Shown piece by piece: positions 2,792 to 18,315 of a DNA stretch of 38,069 bases; the first letter of the stretch is position 1, and every line of letters starts with the position of its first letter. The stretch is taken from positions 1-38,069 of the forward strand of contig CAMAVB010000044.1 in assembly GCA_945861465.1 (NCBI GenBank), read 5' to 3'. Source of the stretch: Candidatus Kuenenia stuttgartensis. Lineage in GTDB: Bacteria; Planctomycetota; Planctomycetia; Planctomycetales; Planctomycetaceae. Made by a program: the position numbers and the translations under genes. The notes below the pieces were generated by a model. The model had not been told where the DNA came from. It searched no databases and worked only from the letters and a program-made list of their open reading frames with translations.

Positions 2792-3850
2792 GTGTCTGGT
2801 CAATTATCATACTGCATCGGGTATCTCGGCGCCGATTGGTGGGGAAGTGATGCCCGAGCCCTGGCGACGGAACTGCGATCACAGGGGCATTTACTGGTCG
2901 AACGGCACTACGAGGACTATTTTTCCACAAAATGGCGAAGTTTTGCGCTGCGTGCTTTTCGCCGCCTGTCTCGTCCGCTGATGGCGGCCGAATACAACCG
3001 TGCCGTTTGTGAATTGCTTGACATCGGGGCTCTGGATTTCCTGCTGGCGTTTAAGGGGATGCTGCTGGACGAATCAACGCTGCTGAAGTTTCGGAAACTC
3101 GGCAAGCCGTGCTACTGCGTTTACCCCGACGTCAGCTATCGGGATCATGGAGAAAATATCTGGAAGTGCCTGCCGCATTATGACTGTGTTTTTACAACAA
3201 AGTCCTATCATCTTGAAGATCCGGAATTGGTGAAGCGCGTTCGTTGCCTGCAATATGTTCCTCATGGATTTGACCCGGAAGTGCATCGGCCTGTGACGCT
3301 TACGGCCAGACTCAAAGAATACTACGGCTGTGATGTTTCGTTTGTTGGGGTGTGGTCACCGAAAAAAGAACAGATTCTGTCCGCTGTCATTGATGCGTTG
3401 CCAGATGTAGATCTCAGAATCTGGGGACCGTTCTGGAATCGGGCGCAAGAGTCCGTTCGGCGTTGCTGGCAGAAGCGAAGTGCTTACGGCGATGAGCTGG
3501 CGGCGATTTGTTCCTGTTCGAGAATCAATCTTGGACTGCTGAGCGAGGCAGGGCAGGGCACCGTCGAGGGGGACCGCACGACGGCCAGAACCTGGCAGAT
3601 TCCGGCCTGCGGCGGTTTTCTGCTTCACGAAGATACAAACGAACTGAGCGCCGCATTTGCTGTGGGTGAAGAGGCAGCGGTATTTTCCACATGCGCAGAT
3701 CTGGTTTCCCGGATCAGTCAGTATCTGCACGACTCCGAAGGACGAGAACGGATTCGGCTTGCCGGCCATCAGCGCTGTTGGACATCACTGTATTCATATC
3801 GCGCTGCGGCGGAGCGGGTGCTGACGTTTCATCGGAATCGGTCGCCATGA
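2792..3850 (+). CDS. CgeB-like family 1 glycosyltransferase
   Basis: Probably transfers a sugar in synthesis of a surface polysaccharide; donor and acceptor are unknown. The N-terminus (YCIGYLGADWWGSDARALATELRSQGH) looks like the first Rossmann domain of the CgeB/DUF3880-type group. The central VFTTKSYH...YVPHGFDPEVHRP and the C-terminal EGDRTTARTWQIPACGGFLLHEDTNEL are characteristic of this group's donor-binding half. The start is a GTG at 2792; the frame is open only to about 2729 upstream and offers no ATG, and the first residues align with where such proteins usually begin. There is no clear ribosome-binding site. Its stop overlaps the next start as ATGA. It is the first gene of the polysaccharide cluster. 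Confidence 0.85.
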   Translation: MSGQLSYCIGYLGADWWGSDARALATELRSQGHLLVERHYEDYFSTKWRSFALRAFRRLSRPLMAAEYNRAVCELLDIGALDFLLAFKGMLLDESTLLKFRKLGKPCYCVYPDVSYRDHGENIWKCLPHYDCVFTTKSYHLEDPELVKRVRCLQYVPHGFDPEVHRPVTLTARLKEYYGCDVSFVGVWSPKKEQILSAVIDALPDVDLRIWGPFWNRAQESVRRCWQKRSAYGDELAAICSCSRINLGLLSEAGQGTVEGDRTTARTWQIPACGGFLLHEDTNELSAAFAVGEEAAVFSTCADLVSRISQYLHDSEGRERIRLAGHQRCWTSLYSYRAAAERVLTFHRNRSP

Positions 3851-4608
3851 TCCTGATGTACCACCATGTGTGCCCATTGCCCGAGATTCCGCCTGTGGAT
3901 CAACAAGCCCGGCTTGAAGGGTGGCGATACACTATCGCACCGGCGGCGTTTGAATGGCAATTGCTGGAAATCGCCAGACGCGGCTTTCGGTATGTGACAT
4001 TTGACGAGTATGTGGCGGAACTTGGAACGAACAGGCGAAATTCGGGCTACCTTGCCACGGTGACCTTTGATGATGGTTGGCGTGACAATTTCGATTATGC
4101 GTTCCCGATCCTGCAGACGCATGGGATTCCCGCGACGTTCTTCATCGTCTCGCGCGAAATGGATGGCGTGGCCGGTGATCGCCGCATGACGCCCAACCAA
4201 CTTTGCCGATTGAAGGCTGGCGGGATGACGATCGGCGCTCATTCGCGGACTCATCCCAATCTGGCTTTGCTCAGCAGCCAGTCGCTTGCCGATGAATTGC
4301 GGGGTTCAAAGGAAGATCTGGAGTCAATTCTGGGCACATCCGTGAATTACCTTGCCTATCCGGGCGGAAGGTTCAACCGCGCTGTCGTGAAGGCGGCTCA
4401 ACAAGCAGATTTCAAAGCGGCCTGTTCTGTGATTGGCTGGGGGCAGAATTCTGAGGCATCGCGGTTTTGGCTTTATCGCGACGTGTTCAGTGATCGGCTT
4501 GACAGTCTGTCCGATCGATTACGATTGAATGCCTGGTCGCGAAGAATATTTCGTTGGAAGGCGGCACGACTACTGGGACGCATGCTGCGAGTGAGAACCC
4601 ATGAGTGA
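3847..4608 (+). CDS. polysaccharide deacetylase (NodB homology domain)
   Basis: Carbohydrate esterase family 4 protein, expected to remove N- or O-acetyl groups from a polysaccharide. The ATG at 3847 overlaps the previous stop (ATGA) and gives MILMYHHVCP, the usual beginning of this family; a longer frame from 3691 only runs back through the preceding gene. Visible motifs in the 253-aa protein are TFDDGW at 73-78 (catalytic base and metal-binding Asp), HSRTH at 132-136 (metal-binding His pair) and YPGG (motif 3). No signal peptide is apparent, so it may act in the cytoplasm or leave by another route. The overlaps on both sides indicate translational coupling with the glycosyltransferase and the polymerase. 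Confidence 0.9.
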   Translation: MILMYHHVCPLPEIPPVDQQARLEGWRYTIAPAAFEWQLLEIARRGFRYVTFDEYVAELGTNRRNSGYLATVTFDDGWRDNFDYAFPILQTHGIPATFFIVSREMDGVAGDRRMTPNQLCRLKAGGMTIGAHSRTHPNLALLSSQSLADELRGSKEDLESILGTSVNYLAYPGGRFNRAVVKAAQQADFKAACSVIGWGQNSEASRFWLYRDVFSDRLDSLSDRLRLNAWSRRIFRWKAARLLGRMLRVRTHE

Positions 4609-6046
4609 GCAACTGAGCAGCACACAGAAGCGATATGCGTGGATACGTTCCGCCATCGAACGCCGCAGTGCGTCCACATTTGGCATTGTTCTGGTCGTCG
4701 TGCTGGGATTGATCGGTGCCGTTCAGGGGCTTCCAAATTGGTTTAGCATCCTTGTTGTCACGGGAGTCATTGCTTATGAGTTTCAAAAGCGACTTGATCA
4801 GGGGGTGCCGCTGCTGCAGCTGACGTGCCTGATTGCCGTACTGCAGTGGCTGGTGGGACCACTGCTTAGCTACTCATCGGACAATCCGATCGAACGCTAC
4901 ACGATGTCGGTTCCGGCAGAGCAGTACTTTCGTTTTGCAATTCCCGCAACAGCCTTGTACGTCGCCGTGATGCTGTTCGCCGGAGCCTCAGTCATCCAGA
5001 AGAATCTATTGCAGCAAATCGATCGCCGAAAGTTTTTCACGATCGGTGTCCTGTTGAACATTGTGGCGATTATTGCGGCGTTTGCTGCGACGCGGGTTTC
5101 AGGATCACTGGCATTCCTGTTGCATCTCATCTCTCAGATGCGATATGTGGGAGCCATCTATTTCCTGCTCTCCAGAAGTCAGGTGCGGCTCGTCTTCGCC
5201 GGACTTTCCTGCATCCAGCTGTTTTCAGGTTCGCTGGGAGCCGGAATGTTTCATGACATGATCCTCTGGCTGGCGATTCTGTTTTGCTATTGGTTCGCCC
5301 AAAAGAAACGCACGACCCTGTTTAAGACTGTCGTGTTGGCAGCCACGACCGTGTCCTTGTTTTCGATTCAGGTTGTCAAACAGGAATACCGACAACAGCT
5401 CCGCCAGGGAGCGCAGCCCAATCTGTTCCGTTTGGTAATTGACTACGTCACGCCCGGCGGTCAGGCTTGGGAAACAGGCGTCTTATCGCTGGCGATCACA
5501 CGGTTGAATCAGGGATGGATTATCTCGGCCGTCATGTGGAACGTTCCGGAGAACGAGCCATTTGCAGGCGGCGAGACTGTCAAGCAGGCGGTGCTCGGTT
5601 CGCTCGTGCCAAGGTTCTTGTGGGCAGACAAGGCGAAGGCAGGTGGTCGAGAAAGTTTTCGCCGTTTCACAGGCCTGCGGATATTGGACAGTACGTCCAT
5701 GGCGATTAGTCCGTTAGGCGAGGCGTATGCCAATTTCGGAGAACTCTGGGGAACAATCTTCATGGTCGCCTTTGGGTCATTCTTCGCATTGTTCTATCGC
5801 CTGACCCTCTGGCATTGTCTCAAGTATCCGACTTTTTTGTTTTGGATTCCGCTCATTTTCTATCAGGCCATCAAGGCTGAGACAGAACTGCTGGTCATCA
5901 TGAATCAGCTTGTGAAAGGATCGGTCGTCGCGTTTGGCTGTCACTTCCTGGTGGAGAAAGTATTCCCCACACGGATTCGCAACTTGACTCCGGCAAACCC
6001 TGCCGGGGCACAGCCAACTGGCGTGGGCTTCAACGTCTCGCCGTAA
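4601..6046 (+). CDS. Wzy-like O-antigen/exopolysaccharide polymerase
   Basis: Polytopic inner-membrane protein of 481 aa with roughly ten hydrophobic segments and a long central hydrophilic loop (about residues 255-370). It most likely polymerises oligosaccharide repeat units. The loop and its flanks carry RLNQGWIISAVMWNVPENEPFAGGETVKQ, GSLVPRFLW and SPLGEAYANFGELWGTIF, a pattern seen in O-antigen-polymerase-type proteins. Sequence conservation in this family is weak, so the call rests on topology, these patterns and position. The ATG at 4601 overlaps the deacetylase stop by 8 bases. A Wzx flippase is not present in the window, so export must be encoded elsewhere or use another route. Confidence 0.75.
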   Translation: MSEQLSSTQKRYAWIRSAIERRSASTFGIVLVVVLGLIGAVQGLPNWFSILVVTGVIAYEFQKRLDQGVPLLQLTCLIAVLQWLVGPLLSYSSDNPIERYTMSVPAEQYFRFAIPATALYVAVMLFAGASVIQKNLLQQIDRRKFFTIGVLLNIVAIIAAFAATRVSGSLAFLLHLISQMRYVGAIYFLLSRSQVRLVFAGLSCIQLFSGSLGAGMFHDMILWLAILFCYWFAQKKRTTLFKTVVLAATTVSLFSIQVVKQEYRQQLRQGAQPNLFRLVIDYVTPGGQAWETGVLSLAITRLNQGWIISAVMWNVPENEPFAGGETVKQAVLGSLVPRFLWADKAKAGGRESFRRFTGLRILDSTSMAISPLGEAYANFGELWGTIFMVAFGSFFALFYRLTLWHCLKYPTFLFWIPLIFYQAIKAETELLVIMNQLVKGSVVAFGCHFLVEKVFPTRIRNLTPANPAGAQPTGVGFNVSP

Positions 6047-6359
6047 GCCGTGCGACGCTGGGGTGCTGTTGATTTACTTGATCGTGGGATAAGCTGCCAG
6101 CTTGTCATTGCTGTGCAAAAAACGAGTGGTTTTCTCCAATCGATGCCAGGCTGGACCGCCCCAGTCCAGGGGAAACTTAAACAGACCGCCAGCAATTCCC
6201 GGTCATTGATTCCCCCCTTGATCTCACCGCGTATGAATCGGCGAGGGGCCATCGCGTAGTTCAGACGACAACCCCCAATGGCAGGCCAGCTGGAAGCTTA
6301 CCCCACGAATCTTGATCGCGCGGGAACTCGTGCGGCTGTGTGGTGAAGAGGTAGATGTA
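6047..6359. other. spacer between polymerase and GT4 gene
   Basis: No gene is supported here. The spacer interrupts an otherwise tightly packed cluster. It contains one copy of a dispersed 23-bp repeat (6084-6106). The frame of the downstream GT4 gene stays open upstream, but its translation there does not resemble the family. A different frame around 6208-6318 reads VIDSPLDLTAYESARG before a TGA, which could be chance or a decayed fragment. Confidence 0.5.
6084..6106 (+). repeat. dispersed 23-bp repeat, copy 1
   Basis: This segment, with the core AAGCTGCCAGCTT, is an exact reverse complement of 33347-33369. The core itself is a hairpin (AAGCTG, c, CAGCTT). Two perfect 23-bp copies 27 kb apart in intergenic DNA suggest an interspersed repeat family. 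Confidence 0.85.
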
Positions 6360-7358
6360 GTGCGAGTGGTTCAGTTTCAGCGTCGTCCTGTGCCGACTCA
6401 ATTCAGTGTGGAAGGATACTTTGACCGCGTCCGTAGCCAGCTGGCTGAAAAGGCTGATATCGTCCCGCACGTCCTGCCGCGCTACAGTCGTGGTGTCTGG
6501 GGACGGCTTCGCAATATATGCTATGCCGCCCGACATCAGGACGACGTCAACCATGTCACCGGCGACGTACATTATGCAGCACTCCTGCTGCCGCGACGCA
6601 AGACGATCCTGACTGTGCTGGACTGTCAGATTCTGGACCGCCTGAAAGGTTGGCGCAGGGCCGTCGTCAAGTTTTTGTGGTACACACTGCCTGTCCGCCG
6701 TGTTTCACGTATCACGGTGATCTCTGAGGAAACGAAGCGACAACTGTTACGGGAAGTGAATTTTCCTGCAGATTACGTGTATGTGATCCCGGTCTCCGTG
6801 TCGGAGTTGTATCACCCATCCCCGCAACCGTTTTGCGATGAATGTCCTCGAATTCTTCAGGTCGGGACAAAGGCCAACAAGAATGTCGTGCGACTCGTCA
6901 AAGCTCTGCAGGGGATTCGTTGCCGCCTGGAAATTGTCGGACCGATTGATCAGGAATTGAAGTCATTGCTGGAAGTCTGTCAGGTCGATTACAGAGCTTT
7001 CGGAAGGCTGACGGATTCGGAGCTTGTCGAAAGATATGAGCAGGCTGATGTCATCAGTTTCGTATCCACTTACGAAGGCTTCGGAATGCCGATTGTGGAA
7101 GCCCAGTGTGTGGAACGCGTGTGTGTCACGTCGAACTGTTCTTCCATGCCGGAGGTCGCAGGGAATGGAGCGTGTCTGGTTGACCCCTTTGATGTACAAT
7201 CCATCCGCCAGGGGTTTCAGCGTGTGATTTTTGATGCGGCGTATCGTGAATCGCTGATCGAAGCTGGCCGACAAAACCGTCTGCGTTTTGACGCTCAACG
7301 CATTGCCGACGCTTTTCTGAAATTGTACTGCCAGGTGTACGAGGAATCGCAGAAATAA
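6360..7358 (+). CDS. GT4-family glycosyltransferase
   Basis: GT-B glycosyltransferase, probably adding a sugar to the repeat unit made by this cluster. I place the start at GTG 6360: the purine-rich AAGAGG at 6346-6351 is 8 bases upstream, and MRVVQFQRRPVPTQFSVEGYFDRVR matches where the family normally begins. A TTG at 6312 would add 16 residues that do not fit. The 332-aa protein has the family's N-terminal half (HQDDVNHVTGDVHYAALLLP, TVLDCQILDRLKGWRR, ITVISEETKRQLL) and the C-terminal donor-binding half (RILQVGTKANKN, FVSTYEGFGMPIVEAQ, SSMPEVAGNGACLVDPFD). The EGFGMPIVEA segment holds the usual E-x7-E pair. It is separated from neighbours by about 310 and 209 bp, so it may have its own promoter. 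Confidence 0.9.
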   Translation: MRVVQFQRRPVPTQFSVEGYFDRVRSQLAEKADIVPHVLPRYSRGVWGRLRNICYAARHQDDVNHVTGDVHYAALLLPRRKTILTVLDCQILDRLKGWRRAVVKFLWYTLPVRRVSRITVISEETKRQLLREVNFPADYVYVIPVSVSELYHPSPQPFCDECPRILQVGTKANKNVVRLVKALQGIRCRLEIVGPIDQELKSLLEVCQVDYRAFGRLTDSELVERYEQADVISFVSTYEGFGMPIVEAQCVERVCVTSNCSSMPEVAGNGACLVDPFDVQSIRQGFQRVIFDAAYRESLIEAGRQNRLRFDAQRIADAFLKLYCQVYEESQK

Positions 7359-7481
7359 AAACTTGTGATTTGGCAGGTTCAGCCTGCCGGGCTGGACTTT
7401 TGCGACTTGTCGCAACAACCAAACAAGGTTGATTCATAGGCAACACGGCGACGTGGAGCGGACGTCCGCACCAACAAGAAA

Positions 7482-7531
7482 GTCCTTTCCGGCAGAAAGG
7501 ACCTACAGAAAACAGTCCTTTCCGGCAGAAA
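7482..7531. repeat. paired GTCCTTTCcggcaGAAA hairpin repeats
   Basis: A perfect hairpin, GTCCTTTC (7482-7489), loop cggca, GAAAGGAC (7495-7502), is followed by a second copy starting at 7515 whose right arm is degenerate (GAAAAAACC). They sit between two GT4 genes on the same strand and are not followed by a T-run, so they look like interspersed hairpin repeats more than a terminator. Confidence 0.75.
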
Positions 7532-7567
7532 AAACCTAACCAAGCCTGCCATTGACTGGATTCCCGC

Positions 7568-8740
7568 TTGTCTCCTCGGTTGTTGATTTGTGTCGATTGG
7601 TTTGATCCGGGGACTCGGGCCGGAGGACCGATCCGCAGTTGTGTGAATCTGATTCGGCTGCTTCATCACGATGTGAAAATCTCAGTCCTGACTGGTGATC
7701 GCGATCTCGGGGCAGAAGAATGCTATTCGAATGTCCGCTGCGGAACATGGAACAATTGGAATGGTCAGGCGACATGTTGGTACGCCACACGCAGGCAGCA
7801 TGCGACAGGAGCGTTTCTAAAGGCCTTTCGACGTGTTCAGCCGGAAACAATTTACCTGAATGGCATGTTCTCGTTCTGTGGTGCCATTGTTCCGCTGCTC
7901 AGTCTGCGTCTGCTTGAAGGCCAAACTCGCATCGTGATTGCTCCGCGAGGCATGCTGAAGGAGTCTGCACTTTCCATCAAACGATGGAAGAAGATGCCGT
8001 GGCTTACCTTTCTGCGACTGTCCGGAATTTCCGGTCGCGTTGTCTTTCACGCAACGTCCGAACAGGAAGCTGAGGAAGTGAGAGGTTGGTTTGGCACTTC
8101 AGCAACCATCCGTGTCGTTCCCAATATTCCCTGCCTGCCAGTCGAAAAGCTGAACGTCGCCCAAAAAGAATGTGGAAAGCTTCGTTTGAGTTTCACTGGT
8201 CGTGTGCATCCGGTCAAAAATCTGCTGTACCTGCTGCGACTTTTGAAGACGGTGACATGCGAATGTTCGCTCAATGTGATCGGACCGATTGAGGATGCGG
8301 CGTACGATCAGGATTGCCAACATGAGATTGCGGAGCTCCCCGGCAACGTGACCGTGAAATTTTCCGGGGCGGTCTCCAACGAGGATACCTTGCGGCTGGT
8401 TGCGGATTCTGACTTCATGGTACTGCCCACCGTCGGAGAAAATTTTGGTCACGCAATTTTCGAAGCCTTGTCGCTGGGAATTCCGGTACTCATCAGCGAT
8501 CAGACCTATTGGAAAGATTTGGAGACAGACCGGGCAGGCTGGGATTTGAATCTGTCGCAGCCCGATCAATTTTGTGCGGTGCTGGAACGGATGGGACAGA
8601 TGAGTGTTGAGGAATATCAAATGTGGCAGACGGGTGCTCATCGAAGGGCGATTCGGTTTTTTGAAGAGCACGATCTGAAGTCGGCATACGCGGAATTGTT
8701 GCTGGGACAGAACGCAGCCACTGCGCCGTCGCGTCGCTGA
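7568..8740 (+). CDS. GT4-family glycosyltransferase
   Basis: Second GT-B transferase of the cluster, 390 aa. It begins near RLLICVDWFDPGTRAGGPIRSCVNLIRLL, in which the AGGPIRS loop is typical of GT4 proteins. It continues with VIAPRGMLKESALSIKRWKK, the donor-domain start LSFTGRVHPVKNLLYLLRLL, and the E-x7-E segment LPTVGENFGHAIFEALSLGIPVLIS. The start is uncertain: TTG 7568 is the first start-like codon after an in-frame stop ending at 7555, and another TTG lies four codons later; no good ribosome-binding site precedes either. The protein otherwise looks complete. It is the last gene of the polysaccharide cluster before the PEP-CTERM gene. Confidence 0.88.
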   Translation: MSPRLLICVDWFDPGTRAGGPIRSCVNLIRLLHHDVKISVLTGDRDLGAEECYSNVRCGTWNNWNGQATCWYATRRQHATGAFLKAFRRVQPETIYLNGMFSFCGAIVPLLSLRLLEGQTRIVIAPRGMLKESALSIKRWKKMPWLTFLRLSGISGRVVFHATSEQEAEEVRGWFGTSATIRVVPNIPCLPVEKLNVAQKECGKLRLSFTGRVHPVKNLLYLLRLLKTVTCECSLNVIGPIEDAAYDQDCQHEIAELPGNVTVKFSGAVSNEDTLRLVADSDFMVLPTVGENFGHAIFEALSLGIPVLISDQTYWKDLETDRAGWDLNLSQPDQFCAVLERMGQMSVEEYQMWQTGAHRRAIRFFEEHDLKSAYAELLLGQNAATAPSRR

Positions 8741-9098: not shown

Positions 9099-9734
9099 AT
9101 GAAACAACTTCTGTTAGTGCTCTTGGCAGCGTGTTTTGCATCAGTAGCGGTTCAGGCGGAACTGGTGATCGATGACTTCACCTTGCCTAGTGCAGGGTAC
9201 GGCGAAGCTGTACCGTTGGACGATGATATCGCTGGAACACGAACCGTGACACGAACTAACTCTGCGGAGATGACAGTAGACGGAGTTGGTGGAGCTGTAT
9301 TTACTGGTGGATTTTTGGGAGGATCGAGAATTGACATTCACTACTTCTTCAACACGGCATTCAACATGGACGCTGTGGGGGGGGGAAACAGGACGCTGCT
9401 GATTGATTTATTTGACACGGTAACTGGCAATTGGAGTCTCAATGCGATTTTCACGAACTCAGCCAACGCGCAAGCGAGTCTTAACCCGGTAGCTGTATCA
9501 ACTCCTGGGGCTCGCAGTTTTGATTACGCACTTCTGCCCACGGCATTTGCGACGGATGTGAAGCAACTCACAATCAGGCTGGTGCGTAACACAGACGGTG
9601 CAGTAATTACTTCCTCTGGCGGCCTTGTGGCTGCCGTACCAGAACCAACGTCTCTGGCTTTGCTCGGCATTACCGGGTTGGGTGGCTGGTTTGTGGCACG
9701 TCGGCGGGGCAAAAAGTCCGAAACTGTTGTCTGA
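9099..9734 (+). CDS. PEP-CTERM sorting-domain protein
   Basis: Secreted 211-aa protein and the likely substrate of the exosortase encoded just downstream. The ATG at 9099 is chosen because it begins a clear signal peptide (MKQLLLVLLAACFASVAVQA, cleavage expected after residue 20). The C-terminus is a canonical sorting signal: VPEPTSLALLGITGLGGWFVARRR, with Pro-Glu-Pro at about 181-183, a hydrophobic helix and an arginine cluster. The mature middle (about residues 21-177) begins LVIDDFTLPSAGY and looks beta-rich with many Thr, Asn and Ser residues; no enzyme motif is visible and its function is unknown. After sorting, the C-terminal tail is expected to be removed at the inner membrane and the protein released or anchored at the surface. 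A strong terminator follows it, so it is probably its own transcription unit. Confidence 0.9.
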   Translation: MKQLLLVLLAACFASVAVQAELVIDDFTLPSAGYGEAVPLDDDIAGTRTVTRTNSAEMTVDGVGGAVFTGGFLGGSRIDIHYFFNTAFNMDAVGGGNRTLLIDLFDTVTGNWSLNAIFTNSANAQASLNPVAVSTPGARSFDYALLPTAFATDVKQLTIRLVRNTDGAVITSSGGLVAAVPEPTSLALLGITGLGGWFVARRRGKKSETVV

Positions 9735-9764: not shown

Positions 9765-9798
9765 ACCACAACGATGCAAGTCGTTGTGGTTTTTTTTT
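9765..9798 (+). terminator. rho-independent terminator
   Basis: Perfect 10-bp stem ACCACAACGA (9765-9774) and TCGTTGTGGT (9781-9790) with a 6-base loop, followed by a run of eight further T residues to 9798. It ends transcription of the PEP-CTERM gene and insulates it from the exosortase operon. Confidence 0.93.
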
Positions 9799-9948
9799 GC
9801 TTTTACTTCACGCAGATTTTGTCCGAAACGCGAAGTATATTACCTCGTGACTCCTTCGCGGACATGCACATCGCAGAGTCCCTGACCCGAAAATACCAGC
9901 ACATTTCGTGCATGTGATGGATCAAAACTCTTGTCGACAAATCTCACA

Positions 9949-11640
9949 ATGGCTTCTGTTGCCTCCCGCAAGCGTACAACGGGGATGATTGTCTGCGGAA
10001 GCGTGCTTCTCCATGCTGGATTCTTCTGTGGCTTGGCTGTTTGGCTGTGGTCTCGCGCGCATTACCAATTCTTCCCACTCGTGTTGTGCGGCTCCGCCGC
10101 ACTCGCATGGTATCGATTACAGGATGCAAAGTGGGATCACACGCCATGCCTCACGCTTCGAGTCGCTGGACTTGGCACCGGGGCATTCGTGCTGTTTGCG
10201 ATTGCGGCGTTGTTCCAGAGCAATTGGCTTGGGTCGTTGTCCGGGATTCTATCGCTGTGGGCTCTGATCTGGTTTTGCGGCGGATTTGAAATCGCCGACA
10301 GGCTTCGCGGGCCAGTATTTCTGCTCCTTTTAGTAATTCCGATCCCGCTGAACTTTGACCTCAAGCTGGTCATCTGGCTGCAAAAAGTCGCGACTGCTGC
10401 AGCGAGCAGCCTGTTGGATATGCTACATGTCTGGCATTCGACATCCGGCGTTGCCATCACGACGGTTCAGAGGAGTTTTATGGTGGAGGAGGCGTGCAGT
10501 GGGATCCATTCCCTGTTCTCCTGCCTGTGCGCGGTAATCTTCGTCTGTGTGTTACGGAGATCAGGCTTCCTGCGGCTTGTGATCAATGCGATCCAGACGG
10601 CAGGTTGGGTGATCGCGGCAAACGCCATTCGAGTGTTCCTTGTGATCTACGCATTTTCGGAATGGAATCTTCCGTTGGACAAAGGCTGGCCGCACGAGGC
10701 GCTTGGTGTCGGGACTTATGCGTTGGCTCTTGGATTGTCGCTCAGTACCGACCGACTGTTTCTGTTCCTCGTACCCATGTCGCACATCCCGTTCGTAGAC
10801 GTCGGCTCGACCTACAATGCGTCGGGCAATGTGGTTTCGCAGTCCTTGGCATTTCTCGGTGCATCGACAAAAACACTCAACCGGTTTCTCAACCAAGGGC
10901 GATTGGCAAAACGACTATCGCTGTGGGTCGTAGTGGGTGTCCTTGTCCTGCTCTTTGGCCCGCTTGCTTCCCTGAATTATGCCCGCGTCATTGCCGATTC
11001 AAGAGCGGTTGCGGCTGGGCAGAATGCTGGAGGAGCACCGAATTTTGTCGGCAATATGAGCGAGGTCGTGACTGACACCGCAGTGCCAAATAAAGTGGAC
11101 CAATGGAAGTTGGTGAATACCGAACGCATCAACCGAACCCCCGATGATCCGCAGGGCACAAATTCAACGGTCTTCACATTCGCTGGTGAAGGCCTGACCG
11201 CATCCTTTTCAGTGGATGGTTATTATCCCGAATGGCACGACCTTGCCTACTGTTACACTGCTCTGGACTGGAAGCTGAAGAGTCAGCAAAACTTCCAGGA
11301 TGCATCGACCGGGCATAACGCCACAATGCTGTCACTCTACATTGAGGATGGACAGTATTCTGTTTCGTATTTTTCGTGTTACGACAGTCGATTGCAGTCC
11401 GTAAAACCTGGAGCGGCGACGATTGGTGTGATCCCGACATTCAGCGTGCTCATGGATCGATTGCCATGGCACGCCTCAAGTGACCCTGACACGGCGAAGA
11501 TTGTGCCCCCTGTCTTTCAGTTGCAACTCATGTGCAGCAGTTCCCATGAATTACTCGACCACGAGCGTGTGAATCTGCAACACCTCTTCAGCGTCCTGAG
11601 TCAGCATGCGTTGCAGTCGATTATGAAGGCATCTCCATGA
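9949..11640 (+). CDS. xrtU: exosortase fused to EpsI-like domain (XrtU-like)
   Basis: Integral membrane cysteine transpeptidase-like enzyme expected to process PEP-CTERM proteins. The start is either ATG 9949 (used here, 563 aa) or an in-frame TTG at 9931; neither has a clear ribosome-binding site. The first about 285 residues form a multi-spanning exosortase domain with the three invariant positions: Cys183 in VEEACSGIHSL, Arg228 in NAIRV and His249 in WPHEALG. After a further membrane segment (about 315-335), the C-terminal 200 residues form a soluble domain (VDQWKLVNTERINR, GEGLTASFSVDGYYPEWHDLAYCYTALDW) resembling the exosortase-associated EpsI/DUF3485 domain, usually a separate gene. The fusion fits what I remember of planctomycete exosortase U, so the symbol is provisional. 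It overlaps the next gene by 4 bases (ATGA). Confidence 0.88.
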   Translation: MASVASRKRTTGMIVCGSVLLHAGFFCGLAVWLWSRAHYQFFPLVLCGSAALAWYRLQDAKWDHTPCLTLRVAGLGTGAFVLFAIAALFQSNWLGSLSGILSLWALIWFCGGFEIADRLRGPVFLLLLVIPIPLNFDLKLVIWLQKVATAAASSLLDMLHVWHSTSGVAITTVQRSFMVEEACSGIHSLFSCLCAVIFVCVLRRSGFLRLVINAIQTAGWVIAANAIRVFLVIYAFSEWNLPLDKGWPHEALGVGTYALALGLSLSTDRLFLFLVPMSHIPFVDVGSTYNASGNVVSQSLAFLGASTKTLNRFLNQGRLAKRLSLWVVVGVLVLLFGPLASLNYARVIADSRAVAAGQNAGGAPNFVGNMSEVVTDTAVPNKVDQWKLVNTERINRTPDDPQGTNSTVFTFAGEGLTASFSVDGYYPEWHDLAYCYTALDWKLKSQQNFQDASTGHNATMLSLYIEDGQYSVSYFSCYDSRLQSVKPGAATIGVIPTFSVLMDRLPWHASSDPDTAKIVPPVFQLQLMCSSSHELLDHERVNLQHLFSVLSQHALQSIMKASP

Positions 11641-13202
11641 GGTTTTATCAGAAATGGATGCGTTTCTTCAGATATTGGATCCGCAGTATTCGGTTACCGA
11701 GACTGCCCCGGATTCTGACACTTGGGTTCTATTGGTCGATCATTGCCTTTCCCTTCGTTTGGCTGATGGTCAATTGGCAACGCCATCGCGTCCGCGATCT
11801 GGTGCTGGGACTGCCGGCAGTGGCAGGGATAATCGCGACTGCGGTACTCGTGGGCGCGGGTCAGGTTCAGGAACGTTCGCTGACAATGAGCTATTTCAAT
11901 GAGGCTCAAGATGCCATCGCCGAAACAGAGTATCCACTTGCAGAATTGCTGCTGGGCCGGGTCCTGCAACGCGGCGACAGCAAACTCAGCGATGCTCAAT
12001 ACCTGATGGCAGTTCTCTTTGAGGAGACGGGGCAAGAGGAGCGTGCATCGGCGCTGCTCAGGATTATTGCTCCGGATGACAGTCGGGGAAACCGCGATGC
12101 GCACAGTCGACTGGCGAGGATTCTGGCAAATCAAACAACCTTTCAGAGCGATCCTGCGGATATCAAGCGTTTGTATTGGCATCTGACAGCTGCGATGGAA
12201 GACGGATCCCCGGACATGGCGTTGGCATGGGGACAGTATTCACTTGCCGTAGGAGACCTCGAATCTGCCAGGCGATATCTGGCGGATGCGGTGAAGGACT
12301 TCCCTGAGGTTTGGCAGACATTGGGCGTGATCGAAGCGACCATTGGAAACGATGTTACGGCCACCGCGCATTTTCAGCGATCGGCCGATTACTTCTCGGA
12401 AAAGCTGCGAATCGATCCGAAAGATGAGCGTAGCCGTATCGACTACGCTCAAACTCTGATGAAACTCGGTCGCCTGGATGAAGCAAAAATCATTCTGGAA
12501 CAGGGTAAACTTCTGGATCCCAATGGTAAATGGTCATGGATGCTCGCATCACTGGCCGTCAGTTACCACGATCTGAATGCCGCAACGGGAAAGCCCATTT
12601 CAGAGCTGCTTGGTTATCTTGATCGCGCTCTCACTTATGATCCGAATCATGGCCTGGCTCTGAATCGCCTGATGGCTTACGCAAAAGCGGATGTCACAGG
12701 CAACGTCGAGCTGAAGACGGTCCTTGCGCGCGTGATTGCCGAAGGAGAACAGCCCGCACTGGCTCATCTGGCGATGGGAAATCTGTGCTGGCTGGAGGAC
12801 GACCGGGAAGGCGCATTATTTCATTTCGAAAGTGCCACAGAAATCCGGGATGATGTGGCTGTCGTGCTCAACAATCTGGCATGGCTGATCTCGCACGACA
12901 CAGCCGCGCCGGACTTTGAACGAGCAATCGGACTCGTGAATTCTGCTCTCGAAAAGCGCCCGGACGATCCCAGTTTTCTGGACACTCGTGGAACGGTCTT
13001 TTTCCTGCAAAAGAACTGGAAACCTGCGCTCATCGACTTCGAGAAAGCTCTGTCTGGCGTGCGTGACAAACGCTCTGTCCATGAGAAACTGGCGATCATC
13101 TATCAGGAACTCGGCATGCCGGAGATTTCTGAACAGCATACGAAGCTAAGCGCAGAACTGATGAACACCCAGACTCCCATAGTTCCGCAGGTTCGACAAT
13201 GA
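11637..13202 (+). CDS. membrane-anchored TPR protein of exosortase operon
   Basis: 521-aa protein with a basic N-terminus, two membrane segments (about residues 29-47 and 56-76) and a long helical periplasmic or cytoplasmic part made of tetratricopeptide-like repeats. Clear repeat units include AQYLMAVLFEETGQEERASALLR, IDYAQTLMKLGRLDEAKIILEQGKLLDP, LAMGNLCWLEDDREGALFHFESATEI and LDTRGTVFFLQKNWKPALIDFEKAL. TPR proteins such as PrsT-type proteins commonly accompany exosortase/exopolysaccharide loci, where they are thought to act as assembly scaffolds; the exact role here is unknown. It overlaps the exosortase gene upstream and the carbamoyltransferase downstream by 4 bases each, so the three should be made together. 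Confidence 0.85.
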   Translation: MRFYQKWMRFFRYWIRSIRLPRLPRILTLGFYWSIIAFPFVWLMVNWQRHRVRDLVLGLPAVAGIIATAVLVGAGQVQERSLTMSYFNEAQDAIAETEYPLAELLLGRVLQRGDSKLSDAQYLMAVLFEETGQEERASALLRIIAPDDSRGNRDAHSRLARILANQTTFQSDPADIKRLYWHLTAAMEDGSPDMALAWGQYSLAVGDLESARRYLADAVKDFPEVWQTLGVIEATIGNDVTATAHFQRSADYFSEKLRIDPKDERSRIDYAQTLMKLGRLDEAKIILEQGKLLDPNGKWSWMLASLAVSYHDLNAATGKPISELLGYLDRALTYDPNHGLALNRLMAYAKADVTGNVELKTVLARVIAEGEQPALAHLAMGNLCWLEDDREGALFHFESATEIRDDVAVVLNNLAWLISHDTAAPDFERAIGLVNSALEKRPDDPSFLDTRGTVFFLQKNWKPALIDFEKALSGVRDKRSVHEKLAIIYQELGMPEISEQHTKLSAELMNTQTPIVPQVRQ

Positions 13203-14971
13203 ATATTGTCGGAATCAATGCATATCACGGCGATGCGTCTGCAGCATTGGTCGTGGATGGCCAGTTGGTGGCGGCTGTCGAAGAGGAACGCTTTAACCGC
13301 GTCAAGCACTGGGCTGGATTTCCTGCGGAATCCATTCGTTGGTGTCTCCAGAAGGTCGGATTGACGGCATCGCATATTGATCACGTCGCCATTTCATTCA
13401 ATCCGAAAGCCAATTTCCTCAAACGAATTGGATTTGTCGCCACGCACTGGCCTTCGGCCTCGGCGATTGTCGATCGACTCAAACGACAAGGCAGGACCCT
13501 GGGGCTTGAGGAACAGTTCGCTCAGGCCGTCGGCACCGAACGGTCTGCGTTGAAAGCTCAGTTCCACCGTATTGAACATCATCAGACGCATGTGGCAGCG
13601 GGATTTCTGATTTCGCCGTTTGATGAAGCGTCCGTGCTGTCGGTGGACGGTATGGGCGATTTCACAAGCACGCTCACAGCACACGCTCAGGGTACGGACT
13701 GGAAGGAATTCGACCGTGTCTACTTTCCGCATTCGATTGGGTTTCTTTACACTGCCATCACGATGTATCTGGGCTTCCCGTTCTATGGCGATGAGTACAA
13801 AGTCATGGGATTGGCACCGTACGGTCAGCCGGAATTTGCAGATTTTTTTCGGAAGATGATTCGCCCAAAGGGAGATACGTTTGAGTTGAATCTCGACTAC
13901 TTCACGCATCACAAAAAGGGTGTCCGGATGGCGTGGAATGACGGGACTCCTGTGATTGAGCCCTTTTTCAGCCAGAAACTGATTGATGAACTGGGGCCTA
14001 CTCGCGATCGAAAAGATCCGATGACGCCAAGGCACGACAATATCGCGAAATCTCTGCAGGTGGTCGCCGAAGAAATCATCATGCACCTGTTGAATCGGCT
14101 TCACAGGAAGTCCAACTGCGAAAATCTCTGCATGACTGGCGGTGTGGCGATGAATTCCGTGGCCAACGGAAAAATTACCACTCAGACGCCATTCAAGAAT
14201 GTCTACATTCCTGCCGGGGCAGCGGACAATGGCACATCCTTCGGTGCGGCCTTCTACGTGTGGAATCATGTGCTGAAGAAGCCGCGGACCTTTATCCAGG
14301 ATCATGCCTACTGGGGATGCAGTTCAACGGATGCAGAAGCCATCGCGGCGGCAAATGCGGCTGGCGTACCGTATGAACAACTTGACCAGGCAACACTCGT
14401 TGACCGGACCACGGACTTGATGCTGGACGGAAAAGTCGTCGGCTGGTTTCAGGGAGAAATGGAATTCGGCGCAAGGGCACTGGGCAACCGAACTTTGCTT
14501 GCGGACCCGCGAAGGACGGACATGCGGGACATCATCAATCTGCGGATCAAATTCCGCGAGAAATTCCGCCCGTTTGCCCCCAGTATTCTGGAAGAGCGGG
14601 TTGGCGAATGGTTCGAGATTAATGAGTCAACACCTTACATGGAGAAAGTGTTTCCGATTCGAAAAGAGAAGCGTGCCATTATTCCCGCGGTGACTCATGT
14701 GGATGGCAGCGGTCGATTGCAGACGGTGTCTAAGAAGACGAACCCACTGTATCATCGACTAATCAGTCGATTCTTTGAAAAGACTGGCGTACCGATTGTC
14801 CTGAACACATCGTTGAATGAAAATGAGCCCATCGTGCGGACGCCTGCGGAAGCCATCAGCTGTTTCCTGCGAACCGAAATGGATGCAATCGTGATTGGCG
14901 GTGTGTTAATCAATCGCCACCGCCCCGACTTCCCGGAATACCTGCGGAAGCGGGTTTCCACACCATCGTGA
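13199..14971 (+). CDS. NodU/CmcH-type carbamoyltransferase
   Basis: Enzyme expected to transfer a carbamoyl group from carbamoyl phosphate, through an ATP-dependent carbamoyl-adenylate, to a hydroxyl of a small molecule or sugar. The 590-aa protein has the complete two-domain family structure. The N-terminal Kae1-like domain has GINAYHGDASAALVVDG, HHQTH at 127-131 (metal-binding histidines) and SVDGMGD near 148-154, with GGVAMNSVANGK and GAADNGTSFGAA further on. The C-terminal YrdC-like domain has QGEMEFGARALGNRTLLADPR, KFREKFRPFAPS and VLNTSLNENEPIV. No catalytic motif appears missing. In the first gene context known for the family (nodU) the product modifies a secreted oligosaccharide. Here the 4-bp overlap with the TPR gene puts it in the exosortase operon, so a surface glycan or glycoprotein acceptor is plausible but unproven. 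Confidence 0.93.
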   Translation: MNIVGINAYHGDASAALVVDGQLVAAVEEERFNRVKHWAGFPAESIRWCLQKVGLTASHIDHVAISFNPKANFLKRIGFVATHWPSASAIVDRLKRQGRTLGLEEQFAQAVGTERSALKAQFHRIEHHQTHVAAGFLISPFDEASVLSVDGMGDFTSTLTAHAQGTDWKEFDRVYFPHSIGFLYTAITMYLGFPFYGDEYKVMGLAPYGQPEFADFFRKMIRPKGDTFELNLDYFTHHKKGVRMAWNDGTPVIEPFFSQKLIDELGPTRDRKDPMTPRHDNIAKSLQVVAEEIIMHLLNRLHRKSNCENLCMTGGVAMNSVANGKITTQTPFKNVYIPAGAADNGTSFGAAFYVWNHVLKKPRTFIQDHAYWGCSSTDAEAIAAANAAGVPYEQLDQATLVDRTTDLMLDGKVVGWFQGEMEFGARALGNRTLLADPRRTDMRDIINLRIKFREKFRPFAPSILEERVGEWFEINESTPYMEKVFPIRKEKRAIIPAVTHVDGSGRLQTVSKKTNPLYHRLISRFFEKTGVPIVLNTSLNENEPIVRTPAEAISCFLRTEMDAIVIGGVLINRHRPDFPEYLRKRVSTPS

Positions 14972-15164: not shown

Positions 15165-16373
15165 TCAAAGCAGCACTTTTCTTAGTTCCAGAATGAGTTC
15201 GACAGTTGTTTGCTGATTGCCTCGCACGATGTTGAGTTGAATCGCCTGGCCAGCTTTGAAGGTCTGCATAAGGCGGGTGAGGTCATCGAAAGTCCGGATT
15301 TTCTCGCCGTTGATGGCGGTGATCTGGTCGCCCAGAAAAAATCGCCTGCCTTGTTTGGTGCATCCCTGGAGCCCGACGGCTTCTGCGGGCGTATTGGGAT
15401 AGACGTAGAGCACCACCAGACCACCCACCAGCAGTTGCTCCGGGATTCCATTGTCGCGGGCGGTTTCGCTGTCGAGGATGGCGATGCCCATCGACGGAGT
15501 CTGGTTGTTGATGGCCTCGTGCATTACCAGTTCCACCGATTGATGAACGTCGTTGACGGGCACCGCAAAGCCCAGTCCAGCGGATGCACCACTCGTGCTG
15601 ACGATCGCAGTGGTAACGCCGATCAAGCGACCCGCACTGTCAAGCAGCGGGCCTCCGGAGTTGCCGGGATTGATCGCCGCATCTGTCTGGATCATCCCTA
15701 CCAGGATATTCTCGTCCTCGGTTTGCACGCTGCGATTGAGTCCGCCAATAACGCCTGTGGACAGCGTCCGCGCAAAGCCAAACGGATTCCCGATCGCCAG
15801 CACAGTTTGCCCTACGTGCAGATCTTCTGATGAGCCGATCGTGATCGGCACCAGCAGCGAAGGTTTGGCGGCGATTTTCAGCACGGCGATATCGTGCTTG
15901 GAAACCGCCCCTACAAATTCCGCAGCAAACACCTGTGGACTTGTGGTGCTCGACAATTCCCCCAGCTGCACTTCCATCTCTGCACCCTGTCTGAGCAGCG
16001 CGTCCTGCACGACGTGCAGATTTGTGACGATGTGGCCATCCTCGTCCCAGACGAATCCGGTTCCCGAACCGATTTCCTGATCGGAGATGCCGCCGCCATT
16101 TGCCGGCAGTACGTCCTTCGACTTCATTCGAACGTACACGACCGAAGGCGAGACCTTCTTGAACAACTCAACCCTTGTCGCTTCGTCGGCAGCCAATTCA
16201 CCGCGCGGCGTGACGGTGCGTTGAGTGTAATCGTGACGATTTGTCCAAGTGTCTGTCACGGTCTTGAACAGCAGCACGGCCACCAGTCCGAGCAGTACGG
16301 TCACGAGCCAGCCGTTCGCCGCAGGCACATGCTTTTCTGACGGTAATTGAGAATCCTGATTTTGGTCACGCAT
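15165..16373 (-). CDS. membrane-anchored HtrA/Deg-family serine protease
   Basis: Periplasmic quality-control protease with one N-terminal membrane anchor (about residues 22-40). The trypsin-like domain (about 65-280) has an intact triad: His120 in TNLHVV, Asp161 in HDIAVLKI and Ser239 in GNSGGPL. One C-terminal PDZ domain (about 295-395) contains VLYVYPNTPAEAVGLQG and FLGDQITAINGEKIRTFDDL. One anchor and one PDZ domain resemble DegS-type or HhoA-type proteins. The 402-aa length is normal. A regulatory role in envelope-stress signalling is possible, but no anti-sigma partner is next to it. It is transcribed away from the DUF447 gene, with a shared 194-bp intergenic region. Confidence 0.93.
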   Translation of the reverse strand: MRDQNQDSQLPSEKHVPAANGWLVTVLLGLVAVLLFKTVTDTWTNRHDYTQRTVTPRGELAADEATRVELFKKVSPSVVYVRMKSKDVLPANGGGISDQEIGSGTGFVWDEDGHIVTNLHVVQDALLRQGAEMEVQLGELSSTTSPQVFAAEFVGAVSKHDIAVLKIAAKPSLLVPITIGSSEDLHVGQTVLAIGNPFGFARTLSTGVIGGLNRSVQTEDENILVGMIQTDAAINPGNSGGPLLDSAGRLIGVTTAIVSTSGASAGLGFAVPVNDVHQSVELVMHEAINNQTPSMGIAILDSETARDNGIPEQLLVGGLVVLYVYPNTPAEAVGLQGCTKQGRRFFLGDQITAINGEKIRTFDDLTRLMQTFKAGQAIQLNIVRGNQQTTVELILELRKVLL

Positions 16374-16567: not shown

Positions 16568-17134
16568 ATGATTGTAGAAGGAATCGTAACAAGTTTGGAT
16601 GCAGCCGGTCACCTGAATGTCGCTCCGATGGGGCCGATTGTTGTGGGTGATTTTGCGAGCTTGCTCCTGCGCCCGTTTCAACCTTCGACCACGTTCAACA
16701 ATCTGGCAGCGACGCGGTGTGGCGTATTTCATGTGGTAGATCAAGTGGAAATCATTGCTCAGGCAGCGATCGGCAGACTGAGCGTGTTGCCTGCCGTTGA
16801 ACGCGCAGTAAAGATCGATGGATTTGTACTCAATAATTGCTGCCGCTGGTTCGAGTTTACGGTGGACAGTGTCGATGAATCGGACGCCAGGAGCAGGATG
16901 CTCTCAACCGTCGTGCATCGCGGCGAACGGCGTCCGTTCCTGGGATTTAATCGCGCTCGACATGCTGTCCTTGAAGCCGCCATCCTTGCGACTCGCCTGC
17001 ACCTGCTTTCTCGGCAGCATGTGCTGGATATGATGAGCTTTCTGGAGCCAGCGGTTGAGAAAACCGGCGGTCATGCAGAAAAATCCGCGTTCGCGATGCT
17101 CAAGGAATTCGTCCTCCGTCACGAGCCCGTGTAA
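16568..17134 (+). CDS. DUF447 protein of H4MPT-linked C1 metabolism
   Basis: The 188-aa protein matches the DUF447 family, which has a flavin-reductase-like beta-barrel start (MIVEGIVTSLDAAGHLNVAPMGP) and a helical end (RHAVLEAAILATRLHLLS, FLEPAVEKTGG). Members are found in methanogens and in the bacteria that carry tetrahydromethanopterin-dependent formaldehyde-oxidation genes, including planctomycetes. The biochemical function is not established as far as I know; a role in making or using the methanopterin cofactor is inferred from genome context. That context is reproduced here: the beta-RFAP synthase gene follows on the same strand after about 176 bp. Confidence 0.85.
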   Translation: MIVEGIVTSLDAAGHLNVAPMGPIVVGDFASLLLRPFQPSTTFNNLAATRCGVFHVVDQVEIIAQAAIGRLSVLPAVERAVKIDGFVLNNCCRWFEFTVDSVDESDARSRMLSTVVHRGERRPFLGFNRARHAVLEAAILATRLHLLSRQHVLDMMSFLEPAVEKTGGHAEKSAFAMLKEFVLRHEPV

Positions 17135-17310
17135 AAGAATCAAAAACCTGTGCCCGCTCAATCGACTGACCCTTTAACTCGCCTGTGCAACCAGACAACC
17201 ACCAGCACGACATGTTTCCCAAACACATTGCACACCTCAAGTCTGCGGCATCGGACCAGCTGCTTGTAATGGCCTGGAGCCGGACACGCGAATTGACGGA
17301 TAAACGATTC

Positions 17311-18315
17311 ATGACAACCACGATTTCCAAAATCCATGTCACTACGGGCTCGCGACTGCATTTTGGACTCATCTGCAGCGAACCCGCCGCGCGCTGGCGG
17401 TTTGGCGGAATCGGTGTCATGCTGCGACAGCCTGCGTGGCATTTGAGCGTCACACCGATCGCTGCTGATGAGGATTCGATTGAGGCAACCGATGACATCT
17501 GCCGACGGATCCGGGAATTGCTGCAACGCATTCGATCGCGCCACCACATGACATCGCTGCGGATTGAGGTACATCACGAAGTTTCGTTGCATACGGGGCT
17601 CGGAAGTGGCACACAGTTGGGACTGGCGTTCTCCGCTGCGAGCGAACTGTTGACGCATCGCCGCCTTCAGGAAGATCCTTTTCAATTGGCTCAACTTGCA
17701 TGCCGTGCAGAGCGTTCGGCGATTGGCACAGTTGGGTTTGCCCGCGGTGGATTTCTGGTTGATCATGGTGAATCAAATGATGAGTCGTTGCGTCGGCAGG
17801 TGGATCGATTCGTGTTTCCGGACGATTGGCGTTTTGTGCTGACGCATCCGGAAAATTCGCAGGGACTGTCCGGCGTACAGGAACGAACATTCTTCGGCCA
17901 GCAAATTCATATGCCTCGGACGCTGATCGCAAACCTTGAGCAGCAGATGTTGCGGGAAATCATACCGGCCGTTCGCGAAAAACAATTTCAAGCGTTCGCA
18001 ACGTCGCTGGAAAACTACGGACAAACGGTCGGCACATTTTACGCCGCAGAGCAGGGCGGTGTGTTTGCGCATCCCGCGATGACGCAACTGGCCGATCATC
18101 TGCGAACGGCTGGAGTTTCAGGGATGGCCCAATCGTCATGGGGTCCGCTGATCGGTATTCCGGCAGAATCACAGAAACATGGAGAAGAAATCATGCGACT
18201 CATTCCAGACTGCATAGGTTCCAATCGCTTGACGACAATGATTTCTGAACCGTTGAATACGGGTGCCACAATTCGTTCCACGGTTGATGATGCGAGTGGA
18301 CGCAGCCTGCTATGA
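17311..18315 (+). CDS. beta-ribofuranosylaminobenzene 5'-phosphate synthase
   Basis: Catalyses the first committed step of the tetrahydromethanopterin pterin-arm pathway, joining 4-hydroxybenzoate or p-aminobenzoate to PRPP with loss of CO2 (the enzyme named MptG in archaea). The fold is of the GHMP-kinase type. The ATG at 17311 is used because the protein then begins TTTISKIHVTTGSRLHFGLI, the normal family start; an upstream in-frame ATG at 17185 adds 42 residues of poor character. Other landmarks are FGGIGVML, the GHMP glycine-rich loop LHTGLGSGTQLGLAFSAA, and GTVGFARGGFLVDHG. The 334-aa length is usual. With DUF447 it indicates that the organism makes a methanopterin-type C1 carrier; the remaining genes of the pathway are outside the window. 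Confidence 0.92.
   Translation: MTTTISKIHVTTGSRLHFGLICSEPAARWRFGGIGVMLRQPAWHLSVTPIAADEDSIEATDDICRRIRELLQRIRSRHHMTSLRIEVHHEVSLHTGLGSGTQLGLAFSAASELLTHRRLQEDPFQLAQLACRAERSAIGTVGFARGGFLVDHGESNDESLRRQVDRFVFPDDWRFVLTHPENSQGLSGVQERTFFGQQIHMPRTLIANLEQQMLREIIPAVREKQFQAFATSLENYGQTVGTFYAAEQGGVFAHPAMTQLADHLRTAGVSGMAQSSWGPLIGIPAESQKHGEEIMRLIPDCIGSNRLTTMISEPLNTGATIRSTVDDASGRSLL

Follow-up and report, generated by a model that had tools for sequence, protein, structure and literature searches.

In the survey of Haft et al. (2006; PMC1569441) an epsH homologue was nearly always found amid genes for extracellular polysaccharide, and exosortase loci were described with TPR proteins and with C-terminal parts resembling EpsI. 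That paper makes no mention of carbamoyl. Among the class III O-carbamoyltransferases, the iron ligands of GdmN are H133, H137, D156, and D333 (PMC9633730). In the open literature, which omits most subscription papers, we found no description of a carbamoyltransferase paired with an exosortase; the single paper there that contains both terms refers to ornithine carbamoyltransferase, and no relevant paper on exosortases of the XrtU type was found there. Here we describe a window of 38,069 nucleotides from the planctomycete Candidatus Kuenenia stuttgartensis (contig CAMAVB010000044.1, positions 1 to 38,069) in which an XrtU exosortase, a TPR protein, and a carbamoyltransferase are encoded by overlapping genes.

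Three overlapping genes beside a surface-polysaccharide cluster

On the forward strand of the window the genes for XrtU (9949-11640), a TPR protein (11637-13202), and a complete class III O-carbamoyltransferase of the TobZ/GdmN/NodU type (CT, 13199-14971) are joined by two ATGA overlaps, one at each of the two junctions. This layout had been reported in the first-pass annotation of the DNA and was confirmed. The same trio, again with overlapping junctions, is present in an independent genome (L056/L086), which rules out an assembly artefact as the cause of the gene order. An alternative TTG start of XrtU is possible at 9931, 18 nt upstream of the ATG at 9949; residues are numbered from the ATG.

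A further forward-strand gene (9099-9734), absent from the first-pass list, ends 214 bp upstream of XrtU. Its product has a signal-peptide-like N-terminus and a C-terminal VPEP sorting motif, scored above the cut-offs of both PF07589 (24.6 bits) and TIGR02595 (24.7 bits), and is a likely exosortase substrate of the PEP-CTERM kind. Between this gene and XrtU stands a forward-strand hairpin resembling an intrinsic terminator (9765-9790), with 11 pairs followed by T8. Of 12 terminator-like sites that a scan detected in the region (7.2 would be expected by chance), none has a longer stem or a better T run. Its position suggests that XrtU-TPR-CT is a separate transcription unit, and the three genes probably do form their own; CT would accordingly be grouped with the XrtU unit rather than with the glycosyltransferase unit. 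Co-transcription of CT with XrtU-TPR is likely in the window and in one other genome.

The PEP-CTERM gene and the trio are preceded on the same strand by a run of surface-polysaccharide genes (2792-8740). These encode a glycosyltransferase (2792-3850; PF13524, 85 bits), a polysaccharide deacetylase (3691-4608; PF01522, 96 bits), a membrane protein, O8 (4601-6046), that is polytopic by hydropathy, and two GT4 glycosyltransferases, GT7 (6312-7358; PF00534) and GT6 (7568-8740; PF00534/PF13692). O8 gave no family above cut-off in the profile scan, and is polymerase- or flippase-like by position only. By synteny O8, GT7, and GT6 are conserved in the neighbourhood of CT. No asparagine synthase gene was found among the window neighbours scanned. 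On the other side, a gene for an HtrA-type protease (15165-16373) is convergent with the trio. The polysaccharide cluster is bordered by a transposase of the IS66 family (9-1442), and at 16568-18315 a DUF447 protein gene adjoins that of a beta-RFAP-synthase-like GHMP kinase, an arrangement suggestive of tetrahydromethanopterin biosynthesis.

The exosortase belongs to the XrtU type

XrtU scored 111 bits against the EpsH-like transmembrane core model PF09721 (cut-off 25.7) and 107 bits against NF033780 (cut-off 40), the domain that defines XrtU; its score against the narrower TIGR02602 was 85 bits, under the cut-off of 105.6. The first-pass annotation had called the protein an exosortase-EpsI fusion with intact Cys183, Arg228, and His249. 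The exosortase and the residues stood: all three, together with Asn225, are invariant in an alignment of 25 XrtU proteins having 20-52% identity to that of the window. The EpsI label is at best distantly right. The C-terminal part is of the XrtU_C family and gave no Pfam match to EpsI/DUF3485 (PF11984) even at an E value of 10; only a profile-profile comparison pointed to a weak, distant relation, hhalign aligning it with EpsI, H/C/GW motif included, at an E value of 5e-5 and a probability of 67%. An AlphaFold2 model of XrtU had a mean pLDDT of 82, and a fold search with this model against the PDB returned nothing at an E value of 0.001 or better. Three exosortases are encoded in the window genome, together with about 26 PEP-CTERM motifs above cut-off, one of which is beside XrtU. 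Note that XrtU_C-type domains above the family cut-off are also found in short open reading frames of ~255-300 residues (L034:2352-3122, L036, L042, L051, L052, L054, and L064); that of L034 adjoins a GDP-mannose-dehydratase-like gene, and no exosortase match was found on its contig.

XrtU is usually paired with the TPR protein

XrtU and the TPR protein are the conserved pair. A TPR gene adjoins XrtU within 1 kb in 21 of 27 XrtU loci, commonly with overlaps of 1 or 4 nt; the HMM used for this count was built from part of the same loci, and single-sequence searches agree. The window protein has TPR matches in Pfam. It is not a PrsT by TIGR02917 (78 bits versus a curated cut-off of 312). No lipoprotein signal was seen in it; behind a basic N-terminus, hydropathy shows one membrane segment that is strongly conserved and carries a GLPA-like motif. 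Because the window protein also has another, less pronounced hydrophobic stretch, its topology is less certain than that of orthologues having a single segment by hydropathy (L037 and L108). In those orthologues the single segment and the positive-inside rule would put the repeats outside the cytoplasm, and the TPR repeats are probably periplasmic. Exosortases fused to TPR repeats in a single chain occur in the same genus (L194:4808-7945, 1045 residues; L192:4912-10278, 1788 residues), and in that of L194 a membrane segment of the TPR-protein kind stands before the repeats. These fusions support an exosortase-TPR functional unit.

CT is a complete class III O-carbamoyltransferase

CT is full length and matched both domains of its family, Carbam_trans_N (PF02543, 193 bits) and Carbam_trans_C (PF16861, 232 bits). 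Enzymes of this family use ATP and carbamoyl phosphate. Nine orthologues all have the metal-ligand residues of CT (H127, H131, D150, and D343), whose pattern matches the two-His/two-Asp set of GdmN (PMC9633730). The best relatives in the PDB are 7xb6 (a carbamoyltransferase), 9s2t, GdmN, and TobZ. A complete NodU/CmcH carbamoyltransferase had been proposed in the first-pass annotation; the enzyme is complete and of class III, and is not NodU proper by model NF041651 (147 bits, cut-off 1000). Neither a signal nor a membrane anchor was found in the CT sequence, and the enzyme is probably cytoplasmic. Another contig of the window genome also encodes a carbamoyltransferase, 40% identical to CT and from a different subgroup (G000:C18:32195-33973; L065).

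XrtU-TPR and CT also occur apart within the genus

CT orthologues (73-88% identity) were found in 9 of the 18 genomes covered from the window's genus. The order XrtU-TPR-CT is seen in two, that of the window and L056/L086, with overlaps in both, and in L073/L087 the end of a TPR gene is followed by CT after a 128 bp gap; the window, L086, and L087 form one clade. In the six other genomes (L066-L068 and L070-L072) a relative of GT6 is the gene immediately 5' of CT, at distances ranging from a 4 nt overlap (two of the six) to a 332 bp gap, and the order O8-GT7-GT6-CT is present wherever the contig is long enough. No exosortase was found on the contigs of these six, four of which are short, such that a more distant one is possible.

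XrtU-TPR without CT is found in the genus at L043, L044, L059, and L063. L044 has the same downstream HtrA gene as the window and lies in a genome without any CT; at L059 XrtU-TPR stands behind GT6, and no CT orthologue was found in this 97% complete genome; L063 belongs to the window genome itself, as a paralogous locus. As XrtU-TPR and GT6-CT are each found separately, the window order joins two separately existing units, either of which may have moved. Between the window locus (9949-11640) and L086:707-2524 the XrtU proteins are ~53% identical and the adjoining CTs 88% identical, and judged by these identities the exosortase is evolving much faster than its neighbour.

The association of CT with XrtU is recurrent but loose

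Among 170 genomes of the family, XrtU_C was above cut-off in 42 and a CT orthologue was present in 17. The two lie within 4 kb of one another in only three genomes (G000, G011, and G460), which does not support a regular place for CT in the exosortase operon. In two further genomes (G015 and G470) TPR-CT is found at a contig edge. An even sample of the phylum gave, among the matches listed, no other XrtU genome with a CT near XrtU. Across the family XrtU_C and CT co-occur at the genome level (11/17 versus 31/153, Fisher p 3e-4), but we give this no weight, since it is in the genus of the window that both are concentrated. For adjacency in 3/17 a chance of 2e-7 was estimated; this figure assumes random placement, ignores kinship and clustering in surface loci, and excludes only the crudest null.

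In a sample of 80 CT relatives from named genomes, an XrtU-like exosortase was found within 4 kb of CT at L086, L089, L093, L099, L100, L101, and L121, which with the window makes eight loci; the exosortase of L101 is a partial gene, and a TPR gene alone was found near CT at L087 and L108. Scanning with NF033780 assigned the CT-adjacent exosortases of L089, L093, L099, L100, and L121 all to XrtU. Counted from the exosortase side, CT is within 4 kb in 7 of 27 XrtU loci, most of the seven having been found through CT. The order is CT-XrtU in L093, L099, L101, and L121, XrtU-TPR-CT in the window and L086, and convergent in L089. On the CT tree XrtU adjacency changes six times, three of the changes being forced by well-supported branches, and the CT-adjacent XrtUs are scattered over several branches of the XrtU tree; both are quick trees, with long branches among the XrtUs. 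The differing gene orders and the repeated changes indicate that the association is recurrent yet loose, and in this sample it is restricted to Planctomycetes. The first-pass annotation held that adjacency in only one or two genomes would speak against its proposal; this is nearly so for the exact order, but not for adjacency in general.

Polysaccharide genes surround the close relatives of CT, whether these are from Planctomycetes, Verrucomicrobia, Cyanobacteria, or Bacteroidetes; the annotated loci contain glycosyltransferases, asparagine synthases, UDP-sugar dehydrogenase, RmlA/RmlD, and an acyltransferase. An antibiotic or secondary-metabolite context, which the first-pass annotation had named as a finding that would count against it, was rejected on these grounds. 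One verrucomicrobial relative (L103) has an exosortase 8.4 kb away, and none was found in the flanks of the other relatives from Cyanobacteria, Verrucomicrobia, and Bacteroidetes. An Asn_synthase gene is near both CT and XrtU in L093 and L121. The XrtU loci themselves are mixed, with polysaccharide genes adjoining some and not others.

Discussion

The three-gene unit is real and intact, and its most likely meaning is that an enzyme tailoring a polysaccharide is expressed together with a module for protein sorting. We consider it probable that a polysaccharide-carbamoylating CT and a periplasm-facing XrtU-TPR sorting module share a surface locus, in which they constitute one translationally coupled transcription unit. 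CT would be a part of the neighbouring surface-polysaccharide cluster that is coupled to XrtU-TPR within that unit. In the cytoplasm, and at the expense of ATP and carbamoyl phosphate, CT would carbamoylate a sugar hydroxyl of the polysaccharide repeat unit or of its lipid-linked precursor. On the outer face of the inner membrane XrtU, partnered by the TPR protein, would process the C-terminal PEP-CTERM signal of surface proteins; the two enzymes probably act on opposite sides of that membrane. The modified glycan and the sorted proteins may be produced together for the same envelope or matrix, the two activities meeting at the level of the locus. Two observations argue against this explanation. 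The eight CT-XrtU loci, with at least three changes on well-supported branches, are unexpected under a purely accidental neighbourhood, and such recurrence makes a direct functional link between CT and XrtU possible; and the terminator-like hairpin of the window groups CT with XrtU instead of with the glycosyltransferases. The first-pass annotation had suggested that a surface polymer or sorted glycoprotein may be carbamoylated during export or anchoring. A carbamoylated surface glycan is a reasonable expectation; a regular place of CT in the exosortase operon is not supported.

A direct link could take the form of CT serving the exosortase, by carbamoylating the glycan, or lipid-linked glycan, that receives PEP-CTERM proteins from XrtU, which would make carbamoylation a step in anchoring. 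This idea is favoured by the overlapping junctions in two genomes and by the repeated adjacency of CT to XrtU-type exosortases, which takes several gene orders among Planctomycetes. We nonetheless think it unlikely, as most XrtU loci lack CT (3/42 XrtU genomes of the family have one nearby, and the phylum sample added none among the matches listed) and CT is common in polysaccharide clusters of Cyanobacteria, Bacteroidetes, and Verrucomicrobia that have no exosortase in the flanks.

Somewhat more doubtful is a neutral rearrangement, in which chance placed CT after XrtU-TPR in a single small clade, all other adjacencies being due only to the clustering of both kinds of gene in surface-polysaccharide loci. 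The exact order is indeed confined to the window, L086, and probably L087, which are one clade, and within the genus XrtU-TPR and CT are each found without the other. However, L086 keeps its overlapping junctions despite the divergence of its XrtU, which suggests that the order is maintained, and CT-XrtU adjacency arose more than once. Were there no functional link, the case would show an XrtU-TPR module and a polysaccharide-tailoring gene coming to share an operon.

The membrane scaffold that the first-pass annotation saw in the TPR protein retains its conserved membrane segment, but that it unites XrtU and CT is very improbable: TPR domains bind proteins and the TPR gene overlaps XrtU on one side and CT on the other, yet the protein partners XrtU with or without CT, other exosortases of the genus are fused to TPR repeats, and the repeats, predicted to be periplasmic from the single-segment orthologues (L037 and L108), would be across the membrane from a CT that has no export signal.

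Returning to the shared surface locus, a stronger version can be entertained with little confidence, namely that in Planctomycetes glycan carbamoylation and XrtU sorting are one module, with the carbamoylated glycan as acceptor or binding partner of PEP-CTERM proteins. We know of no resolved attachment target of exosortase substrates. Sorted proteins may have a carbamoylated acceptor, which if real would give the exosortase attachment group a chemical handle; with an enzyme that modifies sugars as a recurrent neighbour, the surface glycan of Planctomycetes may carry a defined chemical change.

Comparison with known systems

The window shares with the PEP-CTERM/exosortase loci of Haft et al. 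(PMC1569441) an exosortase, whose C-terminal part may be distantly EpsI-like, as well as a PEP-CTERM substrate, a TPR protein, and nearby glycosyltransferases; it differs in the XrtU type of the exosortase, in a membrane-anchored TPR protein far under the PrsT cut-off, and in the coupled CT. With the class III O-carbamoyltransferases NodU, TobZ, and GdmN, CT has in common both Pfam domains, the metal ligands, and the C-terminal motifs, but its gene stands among polysaccharide and sorting genes, not in a Nod-factor or antibiotic cluster, and the protein is too short to contain the dimerisation domain that GdmN has at its C-terminus. Sugar-tailoring enzymes also adjoin the exosortase in exosortase-linked polysaccharide loci with asparagine-synthase-like amidotransferases; in the window CT is present and an asparagine synthase gene is absent among the scanned neighbours. 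The coupled carbamoyltransferase is what the window adds to the known exosortase-polysaccharide loci and, with XrtU and CT probably on opposite sides of the membrane, XrtU-TPR-CT departs only modestly from what is known of the connection between surface sugars and the sorting of proteins.
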